Origin: Sideroxyarcus sp.
GTDB lineage: Bacteria; Pseudomonadota; Gammaproteobacteria; Burkholderiales; Gallionellaceae
Direction of reading: 5' to 3'
Assembly (NCBI GenBank): GCA_030651895.1
Contig: JAUSBR010000010.1
Span: 310,001 to 374,000 of the forward strand
Length of the DNA: 64,000 nt
Shown: positions 37,643-57,020 of the stretch, piece after piece
Position numbering within the stretch: the first letter of the stretch is position 1
How the letters are laid out: the number at the start of each line of letters is the position of its first letter
Notes under the pieces: generated by a model
The model's database searches: none
Seen by the model: only the letters and a program-made list of their open reading frames with translations
What the model was told of the DNA's origin: nothing
Made by a program: the position numbers and the translations under genes

Positions 37643-39082
37643 TCAACTTCCGGAATCATGGAAGCAAATCTGGTTGCGCCCCGCCTCCTTCGCTCGATAC
37701 ATCGCCTTGTCGGCCCATTTGAGAATATTCTCCGCGCTCACATCATTGTGGAATAGCACCACGCCTATGCTGGCGCCGACGTTCTGATACGTGATCATCT
37801 TCGTTGTGCCTGTGGGATTGGGGATCAGATAATAGGGTTCTGCCAGGGCAACGCGGATCTTCTCCGCCACAATCTGTGCTTCTTTGGCGCTTGCGGCTTC
37901 TTCCCCGGCCAGCTCGCTGAGTACCACCACGAATTCATCTCCTCCGAAGCGCGCCACGGTGTCCACTTCGCGTACGCAACGGGCAAGGCGATGGGCCACC
38001 TCCACCAGAAGCAAGTCGCCTGCTTTGTGGCCGTACTTGTCGTTGAGCGGCTTGAAGTTGTCCAGATCGAGGAACATCGCTGCGCCATAGCGACCGCTGC
38101 GTTTGCAGGCTGCGATGGCTTGTTCCAGACGGTCATCCAGCAGCCGGCGATTGGGAAGTTGCGTCAGGGTGTCGTAGAAAGCGAATTCCTTGATCTTCTG
38201 CTCCGCCATTTTGCGCTCGGTAACATCGTGCGACACGACGACCACCCTCTGCGGCTTGCCCTGACTATCCTTGATCACTCCGCTACTGGATTCCATGTAG
38301 CAGATGCCACCGTGGGGCAGCAGGAAACGGTATTCCGTCCGCCGTCCCATACCGCATTGAAAAGCGTCGTTGAAGATTTTCCTGACACGTTCGCGGTCTT
38401 CCGGATGGATCTCGGCGAAGGAGTCCGTACCTTTCAGGGATGCCACATCACCAAATAGTCTGGCATAGGATGGACTGTTGTAGATTCGCCGTCCTTTCAT
38501 ATCGAGCACCGCGATGAAGTCCTCGACATTCTCCGCAATGAGGCGAAAGAACTCTTCCTGTTCTGCAAGATCCTTGTCCACCTGCTCGCGCCTGGCGATC
38601 TGCTGCTCCAGTTCCCCATTCAGCTTCATCACCTGCGCCCCGGACTTCTTGACTTCATCAAACTCCTTCTTGAGCTGCAAACGGTAGCGGTGCATCGCCT
38701 CGATTGAAAAGGACACGATGATGCCGTCCAGCAGGAACACCATGTTTGACCAGAAGCTGAGACGAAGTACTTCCATCGAAATGGAGTAATAAGGCGGCGT
38801 GAAGATGTAGGTGGCGAGCACCAATCCAATCACCGTGGCGAGCATCCCGGACTTGTATCCACCAAAGATTGCGGCAAGGGTGACAGAGGGGAAAAAGGTA
38901 ACGTACTGTACACCGGCACTGACGGGAGCGATCGCCAAACGCACGAACAACGCCACCGCCATCAGGACAAGCGTCAACAGATAGGCGTAGATACCATCGC
39001 GTTTTCCCGGAACGAGCAATGGGAACCTGAGAATAAATCCCAGTCTCAAGCGATTCGCGAGTGCTGTCAGGTTTTCATACAT
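37643..39082 (-). CDS. Membrane diguanylate cyclase with PAS domain
   Basis: A 479-residue protein. It has an N-terminal membrane domain of about four helices resembling DUF4118 (KdpD-like, TFFPSVTLAAIFGGYKSG), then a coiled coil. A PAS domain follows (FFRLIAENVEDFIAVLDMKG to HDVTERK), then a GGDEF domain. The catalytic site RFGGDEFVVVLSE is intact, with an allosteric I-site REVD five residues upstream, so it should make c-di-GMP and be feedback-inhibited. The ATG at 39082 is preferred to a TTG two codons earlier. It probably senses small molecules or redox state via PAS; the ligand is unknown. Confidence 0.92.
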   Translation of the reverse strand: MYENLTALANRLRLGFILRFPLLVPGKRDGIYAYLLTLVLMAVALFVRLAIAPVSAGVQYVTFFPSVTLAAIFGGYKSGMLATVIGLVLATYIFTPPYYSISMEVLRLSFWSNMVFLLDGIIVSFSIEAMHRYRLQLKKEFDEVKKSGAQVMKLNGELEQQIARREQVDKDLAEQEEFFRLIAENVEDFIAVLDMKGRRIYNSPSYARLFGDVASLKGTDSFAEIHPEDRERVRKIFNDAFQCGMGRRTEYRFLLPHGGICYMESSSGVIKDSQGKPQRVVVVSHDVTERKMAEQKIKEFAFYDTLTQLPNRRLLDDRLEQAIAACKRSGRYGAAMFLDLDNFKPLNDKYGHKAGDLLLVEVAHRLARCVREVDTVARFGGDEFVVVLSELAGEEAASAKEAQIVAEKIRVALAEPYYLIPNPTGTTKMITYQNVGASIGVVLFHNDVSAENILKWADKAMYRAKEAGRNQICFHDSGS

Positions 39083-39234
39083 GGGCAACCCCGGTTGGCG
39101 CTATACATAGGGAAAAAATCTTAGCGAGCGGCTGCATGGCAAGCGCGCAGTAGATTTATGGCGCTATGTATAGAAATGCATGAGATTGCCAGCCTACACC
39201 TATTCCAGAATTGGATTGTGAAAAACCGGTGAAA

Positions 39235-42327: not shown

Positions 42328-42514
42328 GATGAATCCTGCCTTTCCGCTAAGCCGTCACGCTTCCCTGAGGATTCTAGTCTGCTGTGGGGCCCATGACAAT
42401 TTGCTGCAGCTCGCGATCGCCGGAATATGATCGTTGCGCGATTGCAAATCCATGACACAAGGTCGATACTGGCAATTGATGCAACTGTTCTTATCCTTCG
42501 TTGAAAATAACTGC

Positions 42515-44470
42515 ATGATTTCCTTTGCCCGCAAGCTACTGACACTACTCTGCACAACAGGGTTGCTGTGGATTTCTTCTGCCAGTGCGCAGACGGTGGA
42601 GATCGGCGTACTTGCCTTCCGCCCCAAGCCGGAGATGCTCAAGCAATGGCAGCCGCTGGGCAAAGCACTGAAACGTGCCATCCCGCAGCATGAGTTCAAT
42701 ATCAAGGTCTACCACTATCCCGAACTGGAACAGGCGGTCATCGACAAACGGGTGGATTTCGTCCTCACCAATCCGGCGCACTTTGTCCTGTTGAGCAGGC
42801 GCCTCGGGGTGTCTGCGCCATTGGCGACGTTGATCGTCGATGATAACGGTGTGCCTTTATCGTCCTTCGGTGGTGTGATCTTCGCGCTTGCCGAGCGCGC
42901 CGACCTGCAAAAACTCACCGATCTCAAAGGGAAACGCCTAGTGACACCAGACCTGGGTTCTTTCGGCGGCTATCAGGCACAAGCCTACGAATTGGCCTTG
43001 GCTGGCGTGCGATTACCGGGCGATGCCGCAGTTCAGGTTGTCGGCATGCCGCACGACAATGTGGTCAATGCCGTGCTGCATGGAGGCGTCGATGCCGGAT
43101 TCGTACGCACCGGCATGCTGGAGGCGTTGGCACATGAGGGCAAGCTGAGACTGTCGCAGGTTCGGATATTGAATCAACAACATGTCGCCGGTTTCCCGCT
43201 CCTCCTTTCCACGCGCCTCTACCCCGAATGGACTTTTGCCGCCTTGCCGCATGTGGACGAAAATATCTCGCGCCGCGTCGCTGCCGCCCTGTTCCAGCTG
43301 GAAGACGATGCGGCGACCACCCGCGCCATCGGCATTCACGGCTTTACGACTCCCAGCGATTATTCCCATGTCGAAGAGCTCCAGCGCGAATTGCGCTTGC
43401 CACCGTTCGACAGCACGCCAAAATTTACCCTGCATGACGTGTGGACGCGTTACTACTGGCAATCTGTTTCGGCTGCCTCTGCCAGCCTGGTGATTCTGCT
43501 GCTGGCGATTAGTTTGTTCATGACCAATCGCCGCTTGCACACCCAAAGTAACAAACTCAAAAATGAAGTTCGCTTTCGCCACGGCCTTCTTGATGCACTG
43601 GGCGAAGGTGTATATGGCGTGAATCACCGCGGGCACTGCGTCTTCATCAATCCTGCTGCCTTGAGGATGTTGGGATTCGATGAGACCGACATCATCGGAA
43701 AAGATCAGCACGCACTGTTCCATCATCACCGCCAGGATGGCTCGACCTATCAGAGATTCGATTGCCCGATCCAGCTGTCGATGCTCGATGGCAAGACGCG
43801 TAGCGGCGAAGATTGGTTCTGGCGCAAGGATGGCAGCGGATTTCCGGTTGCTTTCACTGTCGCCCCCAACCTGATAGAAGCCGGGAGCGAGGGTGCTGTG
43901 GTGGTATTCCATGACATCACAGAGCGAAAACACAACGACGAACGCATCCGTCATCTGGCACAGCACGACACGCTGACCGACCTCCCCAACAGGGCGTTAT
44001 TAAAAGACCGTTTACAGCAGGCGATGTCCTACGCCAAACGCGACAAGCAACATGTCGCATTGATGTTCGTCGATCTCGACCGTTTCAAGCCGATCAACGA
44101 CACCATGGGGCACATCGTCGGGGATTGGTTGCTGAAGGAAACCGCGAACCGCATGCGCAGTTGTGTGCGCGAATCGGATACCGTGGCGCGCGTCGGCGGC
44201 GACGAATTCGTGGTGTTGTTGCGCACTGTGGAAAACGAAGAAGATGCCTTGATGGTGGCCGAGAAGATCCGCAATGTATTGAACAAGCCTTTCGAGCTCG
44301 CCCAGCAAAGCCTGCAGATATCCTGCAGTATCGGATTGGCTTTATACCCGGAACACGCGAATAACGAGACTGAACTGCTGGACTACGCGGACATCGCCAT
44401 GTATCAGGCCAAACAACTCGGACGCGACAAGGTGCAGGTGTTTTTACCAGAGTGCAACAAACAGCGTTGA
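42515..44470 (+). CDS. PhnD-like sensor diguanylate cyclase (SBP-PAS-GGDEF)
   Basis: A 651-residue membrane sensor. After a signal peptide (LLTLLCTTGLLWISSASA) come about 290 residues of periplasmic binding protein of the PhnD/phosphonate-phosphite type (EIGVLAFRPKPEMLKQWQPL and FVLTNPAHFVLLSRR). A transmembrane helix lies near residues 319-342 (ASASLVILLLAISLFM). A PAS domain and a GGDEF domain complete the protein. The catalytic VGGDEFVVL and I-site RESD are intact. This couples ligand binding outside to c-di-GMP synthesis inside. The ATG at 42515 begins the signal peptide; earlier ATGs add a non-signal extension. Confidence 0.92.
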   Translation: MISFARKLLTLLCTTGLLWISSASAQTVEIGVLAFRPKPEMLKQWQPLGKALKRAIPQHEFNIKVYHYPELEQAVIDKRVDFVLTNPAHFVLLSRRLGVSAPLATLIVDDNGVPLSSFGGVIFALAERADLQKLTDLKGKRLVTPDLGSFGGYQAQAYELALAGVRLPGDAAVQVVGMPHDNVVNAVLHGGVDAGFVRTGMLEALAHEGKLRLSQVRILNQQHVAGFPLLLSTRLYPEWTFAALPHVDENISRRVAAALFQLEDDAATTRAIGIHGFTTPSDYSHVEELQRELRLPPFDSTPKFTLHDVWTRYYWQSVSAASASLVILLLAISLFMTNRRLHTQSNKLKNEVRFRHGLLDALGEGVYGVNHRGHCVFINPAALRMLGFDETDIIGKDQHALFHHHRQDGSTYQRFDCPIQLSMLDGKTRSGEDWFWRKDGSGFPVAFTVAPNLIEAGSEGAVVVFHDITERKHNDERIRHLAQHDTLTDLPNRALLKDRLQQAMSYAKRDKQHVALMFVDLDRFKPINDTMGHIVGDWLLKETANRMRSCVRESDTVARVGGDEFVVLLRTVENEEDALMVAEKIRNVLNKPFELAQQSLQISCSIGLALYPEHANNETELLDYADIAMYQAKQLGRDKVQVFLPECNKQR

Positions 44471-52385: not shown

Positions 52386-54446
52386 ATGTTCCGGTTTCTC
52401 GATGGCCTAAGCATACGCAACAAGATATGGTTGATGGTGGCGCTGTTCCTCGGCGCGATCATCGCAGGTAGTGTCGTGGATGTGATTTCCATGCGCGATA
52501 CGTTGTGGGCGGAGAAACAGTTGAAGACACGACATCTGGTCGAGACTGCCTACAGTGTACTGGCGCGTACCTATGAGTTGCAGAAGTCGGGGGTTGTGTC
52601 CGAGGCGGCGGCCCGCGCCGAGGCGATCGCGACCATCAAGGCTTTGCGCTACGAGGATAAGGAATATTTCTGGATCAACGATCTTGGCAAACCCTACCCC
52701 ACCATGATCATGCACCCGACGGTGCCCGCACTGGACGGCAAGGTATTGGATGCGGAGAAGTTCAATTGTGCGACAAGCCAGAGCTTTGGCGATGCGGGAG
52801 CGCCGGTCGCGACCAACGGCAAGAAGAACCTGTTCGTGGCCTTTGTCGAGGTGGTGGACAAAAACGGCAAGGGCTTCGTCACTTATAACTGGCCCAAGCC
52901 CAAGGCGGGCGGCGGTACCTCGGATGAGTTGTATCCCAAGTTGTCCTATGTAAAGAAGTTCGAGCCGTGGGGTTTGCTCATCGGCTCGGGCATCTATGTG
53001 GATGATGTGGATGCTGCGGTGAGTCACCGTGCCTGGCATACCGCCGGGATCGTACTGGCCTCCAGCATCGTGCTGTTGTTGCTGGCGGGTATGTTGCGGC
53101 GAAGCATCACCCGTCCGCTGGATGAAGTGGCGCATGCGATGCACGAGATCGTCGAGGGCGATGGCGACCTGACGCAGCGCCTGCCCGAACACGGCGGCCG
53201 GGAGGTGCGGCGTCTGGCCTCCGGTTTCAATCTGTTCGCGGCCAAGATCCAGCAGGCGATGCTGCGCGTGGTGGAAGCGACGCATCTCATCAACGCAGAC
53301 TCGGCGCGCCTATCGTCGGTAGCGCAGCAGACTGGAGCCAGCATCGCGCTACAGGACCAGGAAACGGCTGCAGTAGCGCAGGCGGTGCAAGGCATGCTGG
53401 AAAAGGTGCGCCATGTGGCGGAACACGCCGGCAACGCGGTGACCGCGGCACAGCAGGCGGATAGCGAGGCGAACACCGGCATGAAAGTGGTCGGTGAGAC
53501 CATCTCTTCGATACGGTCGGTGGCGGATGAGGTCGGTCGTGCCGCGCAGGTGATCGCCGAGCTGGCAGATGACAGCCGCAACATCGGCACGATACTGGAT
53601 ACGATCAAGGGCATCGCCGACCAGACCAATCTGCTGGCACTCAATGCGGCGATCGAGGCGGCGCGCGCGGGCGAACAGGGGCGCGGATTCGCGGTGGTGG
53701 CGGACGAGGTGCGCAAGCTGGCACAGAGCACGCAGGAGGCGACATCGCAGATACAGAAGCTGATCGAGCGTTTGCAGGAGAAATCGCTGGCGGCGGTAAA
53801 GGTGATGGAAGAAGGTCGTCAGCGCGTTGATGCCAGCGTCGGTCAGGCGGGGACGGCCGGAGAATCCCTGGACAAGATCACCAAGTCAGTGGTGAGCATA
53901 CGCGATATGAACGATGAGATCGCCATCTCGGCCAAGGAACAATTGAGCGTCGCCGAGGGTATCAACAACAGTCTGGCGACCATCAACCAGATGGCGAGCG
54001 AGACATCCGCCGGGGTGCGCAGCAACGAAGAAGCAGTAGCCGATCTGGCCAAATTGCTGGATCAACTGAAGGTGCTGATCGGCCAGTTCAAGGTAGGCAG
54101 CAGCAAGCTGGATCTGTCGGACGCCCAGTCTGCCCACTTGAACTGGAAAGTGCGACTGCGTTCGTTCCTCGATGGCCGCGCGACACTGACCGAAGGAGAA
54201 GCCGTCTCGCACCAGCAATGCACTTTCGGGAAATGGTATTACGACGAGGGTGTGAAACAGTTCGGCCATATCCGGGAATTGCGCGATCTAGAAGAACCGC
54301 ATGCCGAGCTGCACCGCACGATCAAAGATATCGTCAAAGCGATGAAATCCGGCGACAAAGCCACTGCCGAACGGCTGTATGCCGGTGTGGACAGCCTTTC
54401 CAGACGCATCGTGGCCCTGCTGGAGGCGGCAGAAGACAAGGCCTGA
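52386..54446 (+). CDS. Methyl-accepting chemotaxis protein with Cache and CZB domains
   Basis: A 686-residue chemoreceptor. After a first transmembrane helix ([19 protein letters not shown]) comes an sCache_2-like periplasmic sensor ([19 protein letters not shown]). A second helix ([16 protein letters not shown]) and HAMP domain follow, then the cytoplasmic signalling hairpin with the core [20 protein letters not shown]. The C terminus is a CZB zinc-binding domain beginning [14 protein letters not shown] and containing [13 protein letters not shown] and LHRTIKDIV, with the His/Cys ligands. CZB domains respond to zinc or oxidative stress; Cache ligands are usually organic acids. No other chemotaxis gene is nearby. 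Confidence 0.95.
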
Positions 54447-54455
54447 GCATTTCCG

Positions 54456-54502
54456 TTGACAGCAGAACGAACGTTCTCTACCATGCAAGAACGTTCGTTC
54501 TG
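54456..54502 (+). promoter_or_regulatory. umuDC promoter with paired GAAC-N4-GTTC operators
   Basis: TTGACA (54456-54461) and TACCAT (54479-54484) spaced by 17 bases form the promoter. Over it lie two GAAC-N4-GTTC sites, 54465-54476 and 54489-54500. They are the inner parts of a perfect 15-base inverted repeat (54463-54477 and 54488-54502) with a 10-base spacer. GAAC-N4-GTTC is the Gram-positive (Cheo-box) LexA target, not the CTGT-N8-ACAG usual for betaproteobacteria, so the repressor may be an unusual LexA. No lexA gene is in the window. Confidence 0.72.
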
Positions 54503-54514
54503 TTGGATATCGCC

Positions 54515-54994
54515 ATGACCAGTCTCAACCACCACCCTACCAGCCCCGCGCGCCGCGCCGCTTCTTCCACCCTGCTGTCACTCACACACCCGAACAAATC
54601 GATGTTCGAGCGCCAGCGTGCCCTGTTGCGCAAGGCCGTACCGGCAGGCTTCCCCTCGCCCGCCGACGACTACGTCGAGCGCCGCCTGAGCCTTGACGAG
54701 CACCTGATCCAGCACCGCGAATCGACCTTCTTCATGCGCGTGGCCGGACATTCGATGCGCGAGTTGGGTATTTTCGACGGCGATCTGCTGGTGGTGGACC
54801 GTTCGGTGCCCGCCGCCCACGGCAGCGTGGTGGTAGCGGTGCTGGACGGCGAGTTCACCGTAAAGCAGTTGCTGTACACGCCGCAAGGCAAGGTGCTGCG
54901 CGCCGCGCATCCGGATTATCCGGAGGTGGTGGTCAAGCCGGAGCAGGATTTTTCCATCTGGGGTGTGGTGCAGTGGAACGTGCACAGGGTGTGA
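54515..54994 (+). CDS. umuD: Translesion polymerase accessory protein UmuD
   Basis: S24 LexA-like autoprotease of 159 residues without a DNA-binding domain. RecA-stimulated self-cleavage at an Ala-Gly bond (VPAG-FPSP near residue 45) activates it. The catalytic serine is in VAGHSMREL and the lysine in EFTVKQLL. Its N terminus before the cleavage site is about 20 residues longer than in E. coli UmuD and Ser/Pro/His-rich. The start follows a paired operator. The umuC start overlaps its stop. UmuD'2C is DNA polymerase V. Confidence 0.93.
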   Translation: MTSLNHHPTSPARRAASSTLLSLTHPNKSMFERQRALLRKAVPAGFPSPADDYVERRLSLDEHLIQHRESTFFMRVAGHSMRELGIFDGDLLVVDRSVPAAHGSVVVAVLDGEFTVKQLLYTPQGKVLRAAHPDYPEVVVKPEQDFSIWGVVQWNVHRV

Positions 54995-56271
54995 AAACCC
55001 GTGCCATCGCACTGATCGACTGCAACAACTTCTTCGTTTCCTGCGAGCGTCTGTTCCGCCCCGATCTGGAAGGCAAACCCGTGGTGGTGCTATCCAACAA
55101 CGACGGTTGCGTGGTGTCGCGTTCGCAGGAGGTCAAAGACCTGGGGATGAAGATGGCCGTGCCCTGGTATCAGATGAAGGACATGGCCAAACGCCACGGC
55201 ATCGTCGCCTTCTCGTCCAATTACGAGCTGTATGCCGATCTTTCCAACCGCGTGATGTCGCTGCTGGCGCAGTTCAGCCCCGAGCAGGAGGTGTATTCCA
55301 TCGACGAGTCTTTCCTCGATATCACCGGCATCGCGCTCGATCACACGGAGTATGCGCAGCAGATACGCGAGACCGTTCGCCGCTGCATCGGCATCCCGGT
55401 GTGCGTGGGCGTCGCGGCGAGCAAGACGCTGGCCAAGCTGGCCAATCATGTGGCGAAGAAGAATGCGCGCTTCGGCGGGGTGTGCGACCTCAATGCACTG
55501 ACGGAACGGGAACTCGACGAGCTGTTCGCCGCTATCGACGTGCGCGAGATATGGGGGGTGGGCAGACGCAGTGCCGACAGGCTGAACGAGATGGGCATCC
55601 GTTCCGTGCTCGACCTGAAACGCACGCCGGCCAAACGCCTGCGTGACGAATTCAGCGTGGTGCAGGAACGCATCGTGGAAGAACTGAACGGCACGGCCTG
55701 CCTGGAGCTGGATGATGTGGTGCCCGACAAGCAGCAGATCATCTGCTCGCGTTCGTTCGGTACGCCGACTTCTTTATTGTCCGATCTGGAGCAGGCGGTG
55801 GTCGCCTATACCACGCGCGCGGCGGAGAAGTTGCGCCTGCAGCATTCACTGGCCGGCGGCATCCAGGTGTATATCCGTACCAGCCCGCACCGGGAACGCG
55901 ATCCGCAGTACCAGCAGGCGATGCTGGTGCCCTTGCAAGAACCGACCGACGACACGCGCCTGCTCTGCCATGCGGCATTGCGCGGCTTGCGCCGGATCTA
56001 CCGCGCGGGCTATGCCTATCAGAAGGCCGGGGTGATGCTGAGCGGGATCATCCCCGCCTCGGTCCGGCCGCGGACATTTTTCGACGATGCTGAGGCGCAG
56101 CAGAAGTCGCATGCGCTGATGCGCACGCTGGACCGCATCAATCGCAGCATGGGCAGCGGCACGGTGAAACTTCTGGGTGAAGGCTACGATACTTCCTGGG
56201 CGATGCGCAGGGACCACCGGTCCAAGCGTTGCACCACCGAGTGGAGCGAGTTGTGCCGGGCGCGCGCCTGA
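54991..56271 (+). CDS. umuC: Y-family DNA polymerase UmuC
   Basis: Catalytic subunit of polymerase V, 426 residues, for damage tolerance. The palm motifs LIDCNNFFVSCE (first Asp) and VYSIDESFLDITG (Asp-Glu pair) are intact. KLANHVAKKNARFGG and VGRRSADRLNEMG (helix-hairpin-helix in the thumb) follow, and the little-finger domain is complete. The GTG at 54991 overlaps the umuD stop (GTGA) and gives a start equivalent to E. coli UmuC; a GTG at 54973 is an alternative. It converges with the bacteriohemerythrin gene with no gap. Confidence 0.95.
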   Translation: MKTRAIALIDCNNFFVSCERLFRPDLEGKPVVVLSNNDGCVVSRSQEVKDLGMKMAVPWYQMKDMAKRHGIVAFSSNYELYADLSNRVMSLLAQFSPEQEVYSIDESFLDITGIALDHTEYAQQIRETVRRCIGIPVCVGVAASKTLAKLANHVAKKNARFGGVCDLNALTERELDELFAAIDVREIWGVGRRSADRLNEMGIRSVLDLKRTPAKRLRDEFSVVQERIVEELNGTACLELDDVVPDKQQIICSRSFGTPTSLLSDLEQAVVAYTTRAAEKLRLQHSLAGGIQVYIRTSPHRERDPQYQQAMLVPLQEPTDDTRLLCHAALRGLRRIYRAGYAYQKAGVMLSGIIPASVRPRTFFDDAEAQQKSHALMRTLDRINRSMGSGTVKLLGEGYDTSWAMRRDHRSKRCTTEWSELCRARA

Positions 56272-56775
56272 TCAGGCGGCTTTCCAGAGTTCCCACCACT
56301 TCTTGGAATTGGACATGGCCGCGAATTCGGCGGTGGCTTCGCGCTCCCACACATCAACCGAGAACCCGACCTCCTGCAAAGCGGCGCTGTATTTCGTATC
56401 CACCCCCTGGATATGCTCCTTGAGCCAGGTCTTGAGGAAAGTCAGCATCTCGAAATAGATCGGCTTGTCTTCAAGCATGTGTTTCTTTGCCAGCTGGTCC
56501 AGTTCCGCCAGCAGCTTCCTGTGCTCGGCAATATGCGGTTCGAGGTCTTTGTATTTCGCCTGCCGCATCAGCCGTTCTTCCAGCGCAAAATGCGTCTGCG
56601 TGTAACTGACCAGCGCATCCAGTATCCCGGCGATGGCACGGTCACCCTCGCGCTTGGATACCGCGACAAAGAGCCGGTTGAGGATGTTGACCAGCTCCTG
56701 ATGCTGGTTGTCGATGGTCTTGATGTTGACACTGTAGTCCGGAGACCATTTGAAGAAGACTTCGTCGTTAGCCAT
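56272..56775 (-). CDS. Bacteriohemerythrin
   Basis: A 167-residue oxygen-binding di-iron protein. All seven metal ligands are visible: His in TIDNQHQELVNIL, His and Glu in THFALEERLM, the HIAEHRKLL pair and HIQGVD with the last His and Asp. Domain length exceeds the usual 135 by a helical C-terminal tail of about 30 residues (EVGFSVDVWEREATAEF). Such proteins store or sense oxygen and deliver it to methane- or iron-oxidising enzymes, or signal. The ATG at 56775 has GGGAG five bases upstream. A c-di-GMP-I riboswitch lies about 110 bases upstream in the leader. Confidence 0.94.
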   Translation of the reverse strand: MANDEVFFKWSPDYSVNIKTIDNQHQELVNILNRLFVAVSKREGDRAIAGILDALVSYTQTHFALEERLMRQAKYKDLEPHIAEHRKLLAELDQLAKKHMLEDKPIYFEMLTFLKTWLKEHIQGVDTKYSAALQEVGFSVDVWEREATAEFAAMSNSKKWWELWKAA

Positions 56776-56877
56776 GTGCGCTCCCAATGAACATTCAGTC
56801 ACGATTCGATACATGAGAAAAGCCCTACAGCGGCCAAACGGGGAGGTGCCAAGACGGGCTCAGGGAAGAACACCCTG

Positions 56878-56960
56878 TGTCGCGGTCCCGCTACCGTAGT
56901 TTCCCTTAGGCCGGAGACTTTGCGTCCGTACCTTTCGGTACGTTTGCCAAGTGGGTGAAT
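56878..56960 (-). ncRNA. Cyclic di-GMP-I (GEMM) riboswitch
   Basis: The minus strand reads CACCCACTTGGCAAACG, then GTACC-GAAA-GGTAC (a GNRA-capped stem). Next come GGACGCAAAGTCTCCGGCCT and CTACGGTAGCGGGACCGC. These match the conserved parts of the GEMM aptamer: GGCAAAC, the GNRA stem, GGACGCAAAG, CCGGCCTAA and GGTAGCGGG. It lies in the leader of the bacteriohemerythrin gene. Downstream, CAGGG/CCCTG and AGCCC/GGGCT-TTTTC segments could serve as the expression platform. The effect of c-di-GMP, on or off, cannot be read with certainty. Confidence 0.92.
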
Positions 56961-57020
56961 CCTAATGTTTTATTTCAGGTCAGTCAATCCCGATAATTTC
57001 ATTGGGTTTAGATCGCCGAA

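Follow-up and report, generated by a model that had tools for sequence, protein, structure and literature searches.

Riboswitches of the c-di-GMP-I class (GEMM-I, Rfam RF01051) are usually named as regulators of motility, pilus, biofilm or cytochrome genes. Regulation of a bacterial hemerythrin is familiar from Pseudomonas aeruginosa, whose oxygen-binding protein is reportedly controlled by Anr and used in microoxia. In Bhr-DGC of Vibrio cholerae and Bhr-HD-GYP of Ferrovum, a hemerythrin domain senses O2 or redox state and alters c-di-GMP turnover (PMC8846402). Sideroxydans lithotrophicus ES-1 has 11 single-domain hemerythrins, and the reason for this number is stated as unknown in a paper whose main text, as far as it was available, contains no mention of a riboswitch (PMC3770913). 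The locus analysed here shares with the ES-1 hemerythrins both the genus group and the type of protein. It lies in a stretch of 64,000 nucleotides from a Sideroxyarcus assembly (2.13 Mb, 73% complete, 17 contigs), and we refer to the whole stretch as the window. Its aptamer agrees with the RF01051 class in matching the covariance model over its entire length, at a score higher than the gathering threshold, and in its GAAA tetraloop and conserved core, but differs in its short P3 arm (81 nt) and in having a bacteriohemerythrin as its target. As in Bhr-DGC and Bhr-HD-GYP, a hemerythrin is connected with c-di-GMP; here, however, c-di-GMP is proposed to act upstream, with a free hemerythrin as the target. 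The protein would also resemble that of P. aeruginosa in being a regulated oxygen-binding hemerythrin, although control would be exerted by RNA and not by Anr.

When the whole window was searched with cmscan, a c-di-GMP-I aptamer (RF01051) was detected on the minus strand at 56958-56878, scoring 63.4 bits where the gathering score is 35 (E = 4.5e-10). The match spans the complete model (positions 1-87) in a short-P3 form of 81 nt and includes GGCAAAC, a GAAA tetraloop on its stem and a CCTAAG...TACGG receptor. The receptor reads CCTAAG...TATGG in most of the 11 aligned aptamers, a motif that we take to be the 11-nt tetraloop receptor facing the GAAA loop; one of the 11 (G008) carries a TAAA loop in place of GAAA. 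Fold energy by itself does not set the aptamer apart (z = -0.78), so the covariance model and conservation are the grounds for identifying it. Across the 13 aptamer-bearing loci described below the core is almost invariant, while the leader 3' of the core diverges.

The order on the minus strand is promoter, aptamer and coding sequence, which places the aptamer in a same-strand 5' leader. The coding sequence at 56272..56775 (minus strand; ATG 56775-56773, TGA 56274-56272) starts 102 nt downstream of the aptamer and encodes a single-domain protein of 167 aa with matches to PF01814 Hemerythrin (58.2 bits, cut-off 25.3) and to NCBIfam bact_hemeryth NF033749 (134.7 bits, cut-off 84). An alternative earlier ATG in the ORF listing gives 180 aa, but the start at 56775 is favoured because of conservation and a GGGAG Shine-Dalgarno (SD) sequence. 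The closest solved sequences are the DcrH hemerythrin-like domain and Bacteriohemerythrin 4xpx. Based on alignment to DcrH, six iron ligands (H24, H61, E65, H80, H120 and D125, numbered without the initial Met) are invariant in 23 aligned sequences and a seventh, H84, is nearly so; all seven (five His, one Glu, one Asp) are kept in the window protein. We conclude that this protein is a bacteriohemerythrin, predicted to bind O2 reversibly. The sequence-only reading had placed a GEMM aptamer in the leader of a bacteriohemerythrin, pointing to GGCAAAC, a GAAA-capped stem, GGACGCAAAG and GGTAGCGGG. All of these motifs are present in the aptamer, the covariance-model check that it proposed returned a score above the cut-off, and the naming of the protein is borne out by both family models.

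A sigma-70-like promoter, TTGACT-17-TAGGAT, is located at 56959..56987 (minus strand) with 9 of 12 consensus bases. The same geometry recurs elsewhere: a promoter with a spacing of 17, placed 10-11 nt before GGCAAAC, is the best-scoring site in 12 of the 13 leaders, and each of these sites has 8-9 of 12 consensus bases. For the 13th leader (L143) the script returned a different site of equal score, and TTGACC-17-TAGCAT is visible by eye in the usual place. Judging from the promoter position, the transcript would start within a few nucleotides of the aptamer. A search for FNR/Anr boxes upstream of the 13 aptamer-bearing and 15 aptamer-free copies yielded none that was convincing, with the exception of one in ES1a. 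The FNR/Anr-like sites upstream of aptamer-bearing copies have 2-4 mismatches in 12 of 13 cases and a single mismatch in ES1a.

The survey of relatives for which the sequence-only reading had called covered 61 genomes, that of the window plus 60 relatives, together with 14 control genomes. RF01051 was detected in 39 of the 61 genomes and in none of the controls. A hemerythrin protein search of the 61 genomes retrieved 25 copies at no less than 51% identity from 18 genomes, the next match being at 36%. RF01051 occurs directly upstream, on the same strand, of 11 of these 25 orthologous copies (in genomes G000, G027, G007, G010, G028, G030, G017, G008, G006, G021 and G023). The other 14 copies have no RF01051 match, either by strict genome search or by a permissive Rfam scan to E = 1, and thus the aptamer is dispensable for the hemerythrin gene in general. 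In G028 (presumed S. lithotrophicus ES-1) and in G021, one of three close hemerythrin copies carries the riboswitch and the remaining two lack it.

From a collection of named genomes we examined the best 80 of 102 stretches encoding hemerythrin relatives. Within these 80, assemblies named Gallionellaceae, Sideroxydans or Gallionella account for most of the closest named relatives of the gene. Aptamers were found in 10 of the best 80 of 102 loci, all of them within the 23 loci at 62% identity or above and none among the 57 below. Eight of the 10 are genomes already counted, and two new ones (L143 and L153) bring the total to 13 loci. L143, which is the same locus as G082:C31, matches RF01051 with 66.2 bits. 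The L153 aptamer, which precedes a protein almost identical to its G023 counterpart, was matched by our home-made model R1 alone; some of the same aptamers went into the building of R1, which hence is not independent for those species, whereas RF01051 is.

On a protein tree of 31 hemerythrins the aptamer label is clustered, with 5 changes compared with 10.1 in shuffles. About 5 gains or losses are needed, and the least number forced is 2. We regard the survey as strong comparative evidence for a functional cis-regulatory link between aptamer and hemerythrin. Apart from this, extra hemerythrin copies with one in-frame stop each lie near an intact copy in two genomes (G020:C17:31807-32298 and G016:C59:18032-18523), which suggests gene turnover in the hemerythrin family. 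Viral contigs scanned with the hemerythrin alignment yielded no relative.

Based on the computed identity, adjacency and conservation of the aptamer, the promoter geometry and the near-absence of terminators, we propose with considerable confidence that in Gallionellaceae, chiefly in microaerophilic iron oxidisers of the Sideroxydans group, a single-domain bacteriohemerythrin is under the control of a c-di-GMP-I riboswitch, which would act at the level of translation and probably as an OFF switch. A housekeeping-type promoter would start the transcript almost at the aptamer, and binding of c-di-GMP would refold the leader that follows (about 100-150 nt) and so set hemerythrin translation, which high c-di-GMP would probably lower. 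One hemerythrin among the several in the genome would thereby be matched to the motile or sessile state, with a presumed role in oxygen delivery or buffering.

The leader in the window, which we infer to be the expression platform, occupies 56776..56877 (minus strand, 102 nt). It contains a hairpin CAGGG...CCCTG just 3' of the aptamer, the CU-rich element CACCTCCCC, a CCGCTG motif and the SD sequence GGGAG; across loci the leader is roughly 100-150 nt long. When the aptamer is locked, the predicted accessibility of the SD falls in 9 of the 13 leaders, is unchanged in 1 and rises in 3, though most shifts are tiny, and a fall of at least 0.08 is seen in just 4 of the 9. Since locking lowers accessibility in 9 of 13 leaders there is slight support for OFF, and by our own estimate, made on weak evidence, OFF is somewhat the likelier direction. 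The aptamer may instead bind c-di-GMP but turn the gene ON at high c-di-GMP, so that the protein serves as an oxygen buffer for surface-attached cells, an option that we consider possible if rather doubtful. Homologous GEMM-I-type aptamers serve switches of both signs: Cd1, with c-di-GMP as ligand, acts as an OFF switch, and pilM, with c-GAMP, acts as an ON switch (PMC9262584). The three leaders in which locking raises accessibility also point to ON, among them L132 with a predicted change from 0.06 to 0.34, but nine leaders shift in the opposite way and the predictions are weak in either direction.

Several pairings that could connect the aptamer to the SD were evaluated across the loci. Sequestration of the SD by a conserved anti-SD (CACCTCC, CCGYTGAA, which looked attractive by eye) is not supported, as cognate SD/leader duplexes are no better than swapped ones in a co-variation test (-11.20 versus -11.60 kcal/mol, permutation p = 0.75, 13 loci; p = 0.76 for the 11 loci without L132 and L153). 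Shuffle tests of SD sequestration by the leader were mostly non-significant. Anti-aptamer pairing of the leader with the 3' strand of the aptamer (CCGCT/AGCGG) is likewise unsupported, its mean z of -0.60 being non-significant. The leader region +22..+64 complements the middle of the aptamer somewhat better than shuffles do (mean z = -1.29), this being one of six comparisons on related sequences. For the post-aptamer hairpin, z drops below -2 in no more than 4 of the 13 leaders and is -0.5 in the window. RNAalifold applied to the 13 leaders recovers the aptamer arms and the post-aptamer stem; it also pairs the 5' end with the SD, a result that we distrust because the leader alignment is gappy.

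Control by transcription termination, whether Rho-dependent or through an overlooked terminator, appears unlikely. A simple scan of the 240 nt before the gene found no intrinsic terminator in 12 of the 13 leaders, that of the window included, and one weak match in ES1a; translational control is therefore the likelier mode. Termination would be compatible with a leader of about 100-150 nt, and a long-looped GCCC...GGGCTTTTCTC element, noticed by eye, could terminate in the window and in L132, but this element is not seen in the remaining 11 leaders.

The aptamer could also be a relic, a conserved sequence whose switch function has been lost in the window species. The 14 of 25 orthologues that have no aptamer are in keeping with such a loss, as are the post-aptamer hairpin and the receptor of the window, each slightly off the commonest form. 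Against this, the near-invariance of the aptamer core over 13 loci alongside divergence of the leader that follows makes loss of function very improbable.

The specificity of the pairing was assessed in 129 loci, all chosen for c-di-GMP-I matches, which were scanned with a profile of the window-type hemerythrin (some of these loci hold the same match twice, and they include 20 of the further matches listed, picked because a length of 76-81 nt resembles that of the window's aptamer class). A hemerythrin lies directly downstream of the aptamer in 12 of the 129 loci, namely the 11 described above and L221, which is the L143 locus. No hemerythrin of another clade occupies this position in the 129 loci. 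Two further hemerythrins were found, one on the strand opposite to the aptamer (L082) and one upstream of it at a distance of more than 1 kb (L090). In a phylum-wide draw RF01051 was detected in 23 of 299 genomes. Among the Pseudomonadota loci surveyed, the link between aptamer and hemerythrin looks specific to Gallionellaceae.

In Sideroxydans, c-di-GMP-I-type aptamers also stand before motB and before the genes for a small protein rich in cysteine and for a membrane-ankyrin nucleotide cyclase. The 61 genomes contain 84 RF01051 matches (82 above the gathering score), of which 49 were sorted by reading the downstream ORFs. The targets are a membrane-ankyrin protein (17), a cysteine-rich protein of about 62 aa (12), hemerythrin (11) and MotB (9). 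In the membrane-ankyrin representative that was scanned, a domain of the class III nucleotide cyclases was recognised (PF00211, 66.7 bits), and one of the two such targets in G028 is merely 232 aa long. The one MotB representative scanned matches PF13677, and the motB-like genes are preceded by a 103-nt class of c-di-GMP-I aptamer (9 matches, for example L091:2542-2644). The representatives scanned of the ~62-aa protein have no Pfam or NCBIfam match; this protein has the pattern PTCENCxHT...VVCVPHL...VCELH. It stands behind a short-P3 aptamer of 81 nt in 12 of 18 copies in 120 genomes (L092, L103, L094, L097, L113 and others). At G028:C1:862382-864366 (L122) it is encoded some 1.4 kb away from a hemerythrin paralogue that has no aptamer, a neighbourhood hinting that the cysteine protein and hemerythrin may work together.

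The first G of GGCAAAC is, on our assignment, the position equivalent to G20 of Vc2, and it is G in all 11 hemerythrin-linked aptamers. For this reason c-di-GMP rather than cGAMP is the predicted ligand; G20 reportedly gives c-di-GMP preference over cyclic AMP-GMP (PMC10333796). Sensing of a different cyclic dinucleotide, for instance 3',3'-cGAMP, is the least probable reading of all: A stands at this position in 10 of 17 membrane-ankyrin/cyclase copies in the same genus, but G is found there in 11 of 11 hemerythrin-linked aptamers, and the genome has 42 GGDEF matches. As for the membrane-ankyrin/cyclase aptamers themselves, one of the copies with A is from the presumed S. lithotrophicus ES-1, and examples of this type are L020:1501-1590, L011:1501-1589 and L024:1501-1588. 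The G20A change fits GEMM-I to 3',3'-cGAMP (PMC6274999). The window genome's own membrane-ankyrin/cyclase aptamer (L001) has G at the position.

The sequence-only reading had further drawn on two intact diguanylate cyclases within 20 kb of the aptamer. Both are present, a PAS-GGDEF protein at 37643-39088 (minus strand) and a phosphonate-binding-PAS-GGDEF protein at 42434-44470 (plus strand), with GGDEF scores of 152.3 and 171.7 bits, respectively. Their nearness does not hold as an argument, because the genome contains 42 such matches. Also nearby is an MCP with a zinc-binding CZB domain (52386-54446, plus strand). Genes at 54218-56271 (plus strand) presumably encode a UmuD/UmuC-like error-prone polymerase, and the second of these ends at 56271, abutting the convergent hemerythrin gene, which ends at 56272. 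Elsewhere in the same genome, a hemerythrin domain match is fused to a further domain in one ORF (L035:1453-2949), and we read the fusion partner as a histidine kinase.

Searches of the main texts of open-licence PMC papers returned no description of a hemerythrin gene under a c-di-GMP riboswitch. A paper on Geobacter bemidjiensis names GEMM, riboswitch and hemerythrin in passages that do not connect them. The riboswitch class at this locus is known and its target appears to be unreported, ligand binding and control being predictions from sequence.

A tentative wider reading, which we hold to be possible though less likely than not, is that in a microaerophilic iron oxidiser c-di-GMP decides, by riboswitch, which of several close hemerythrins is produced, so that oxygen buffering and motility change over together. 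If true, this would close a feedback loop between oxygen and c-di-GMP, because other hemerythrins are O2 or redox sensors on c-di-GMP enzymes. The pairing would reverse the usual direction, in which O2 or redox state is sensed by hemerythrin domains and c-di-GMP changes as a result. The presence of the riboswitch on one of three close copies in G028 and G021 offers a handle, as that copy should follow c-di-GMP and the others should not. The pairing suggests that microaerophiles, here freshwater iron oxidisers, tie oxygen handling to lifestyle signalling, and that the reach of the c-di-GMP-I class can include genes for oxygen handling in bacteria inhabiting steep Fe(II)/O2 gradients.
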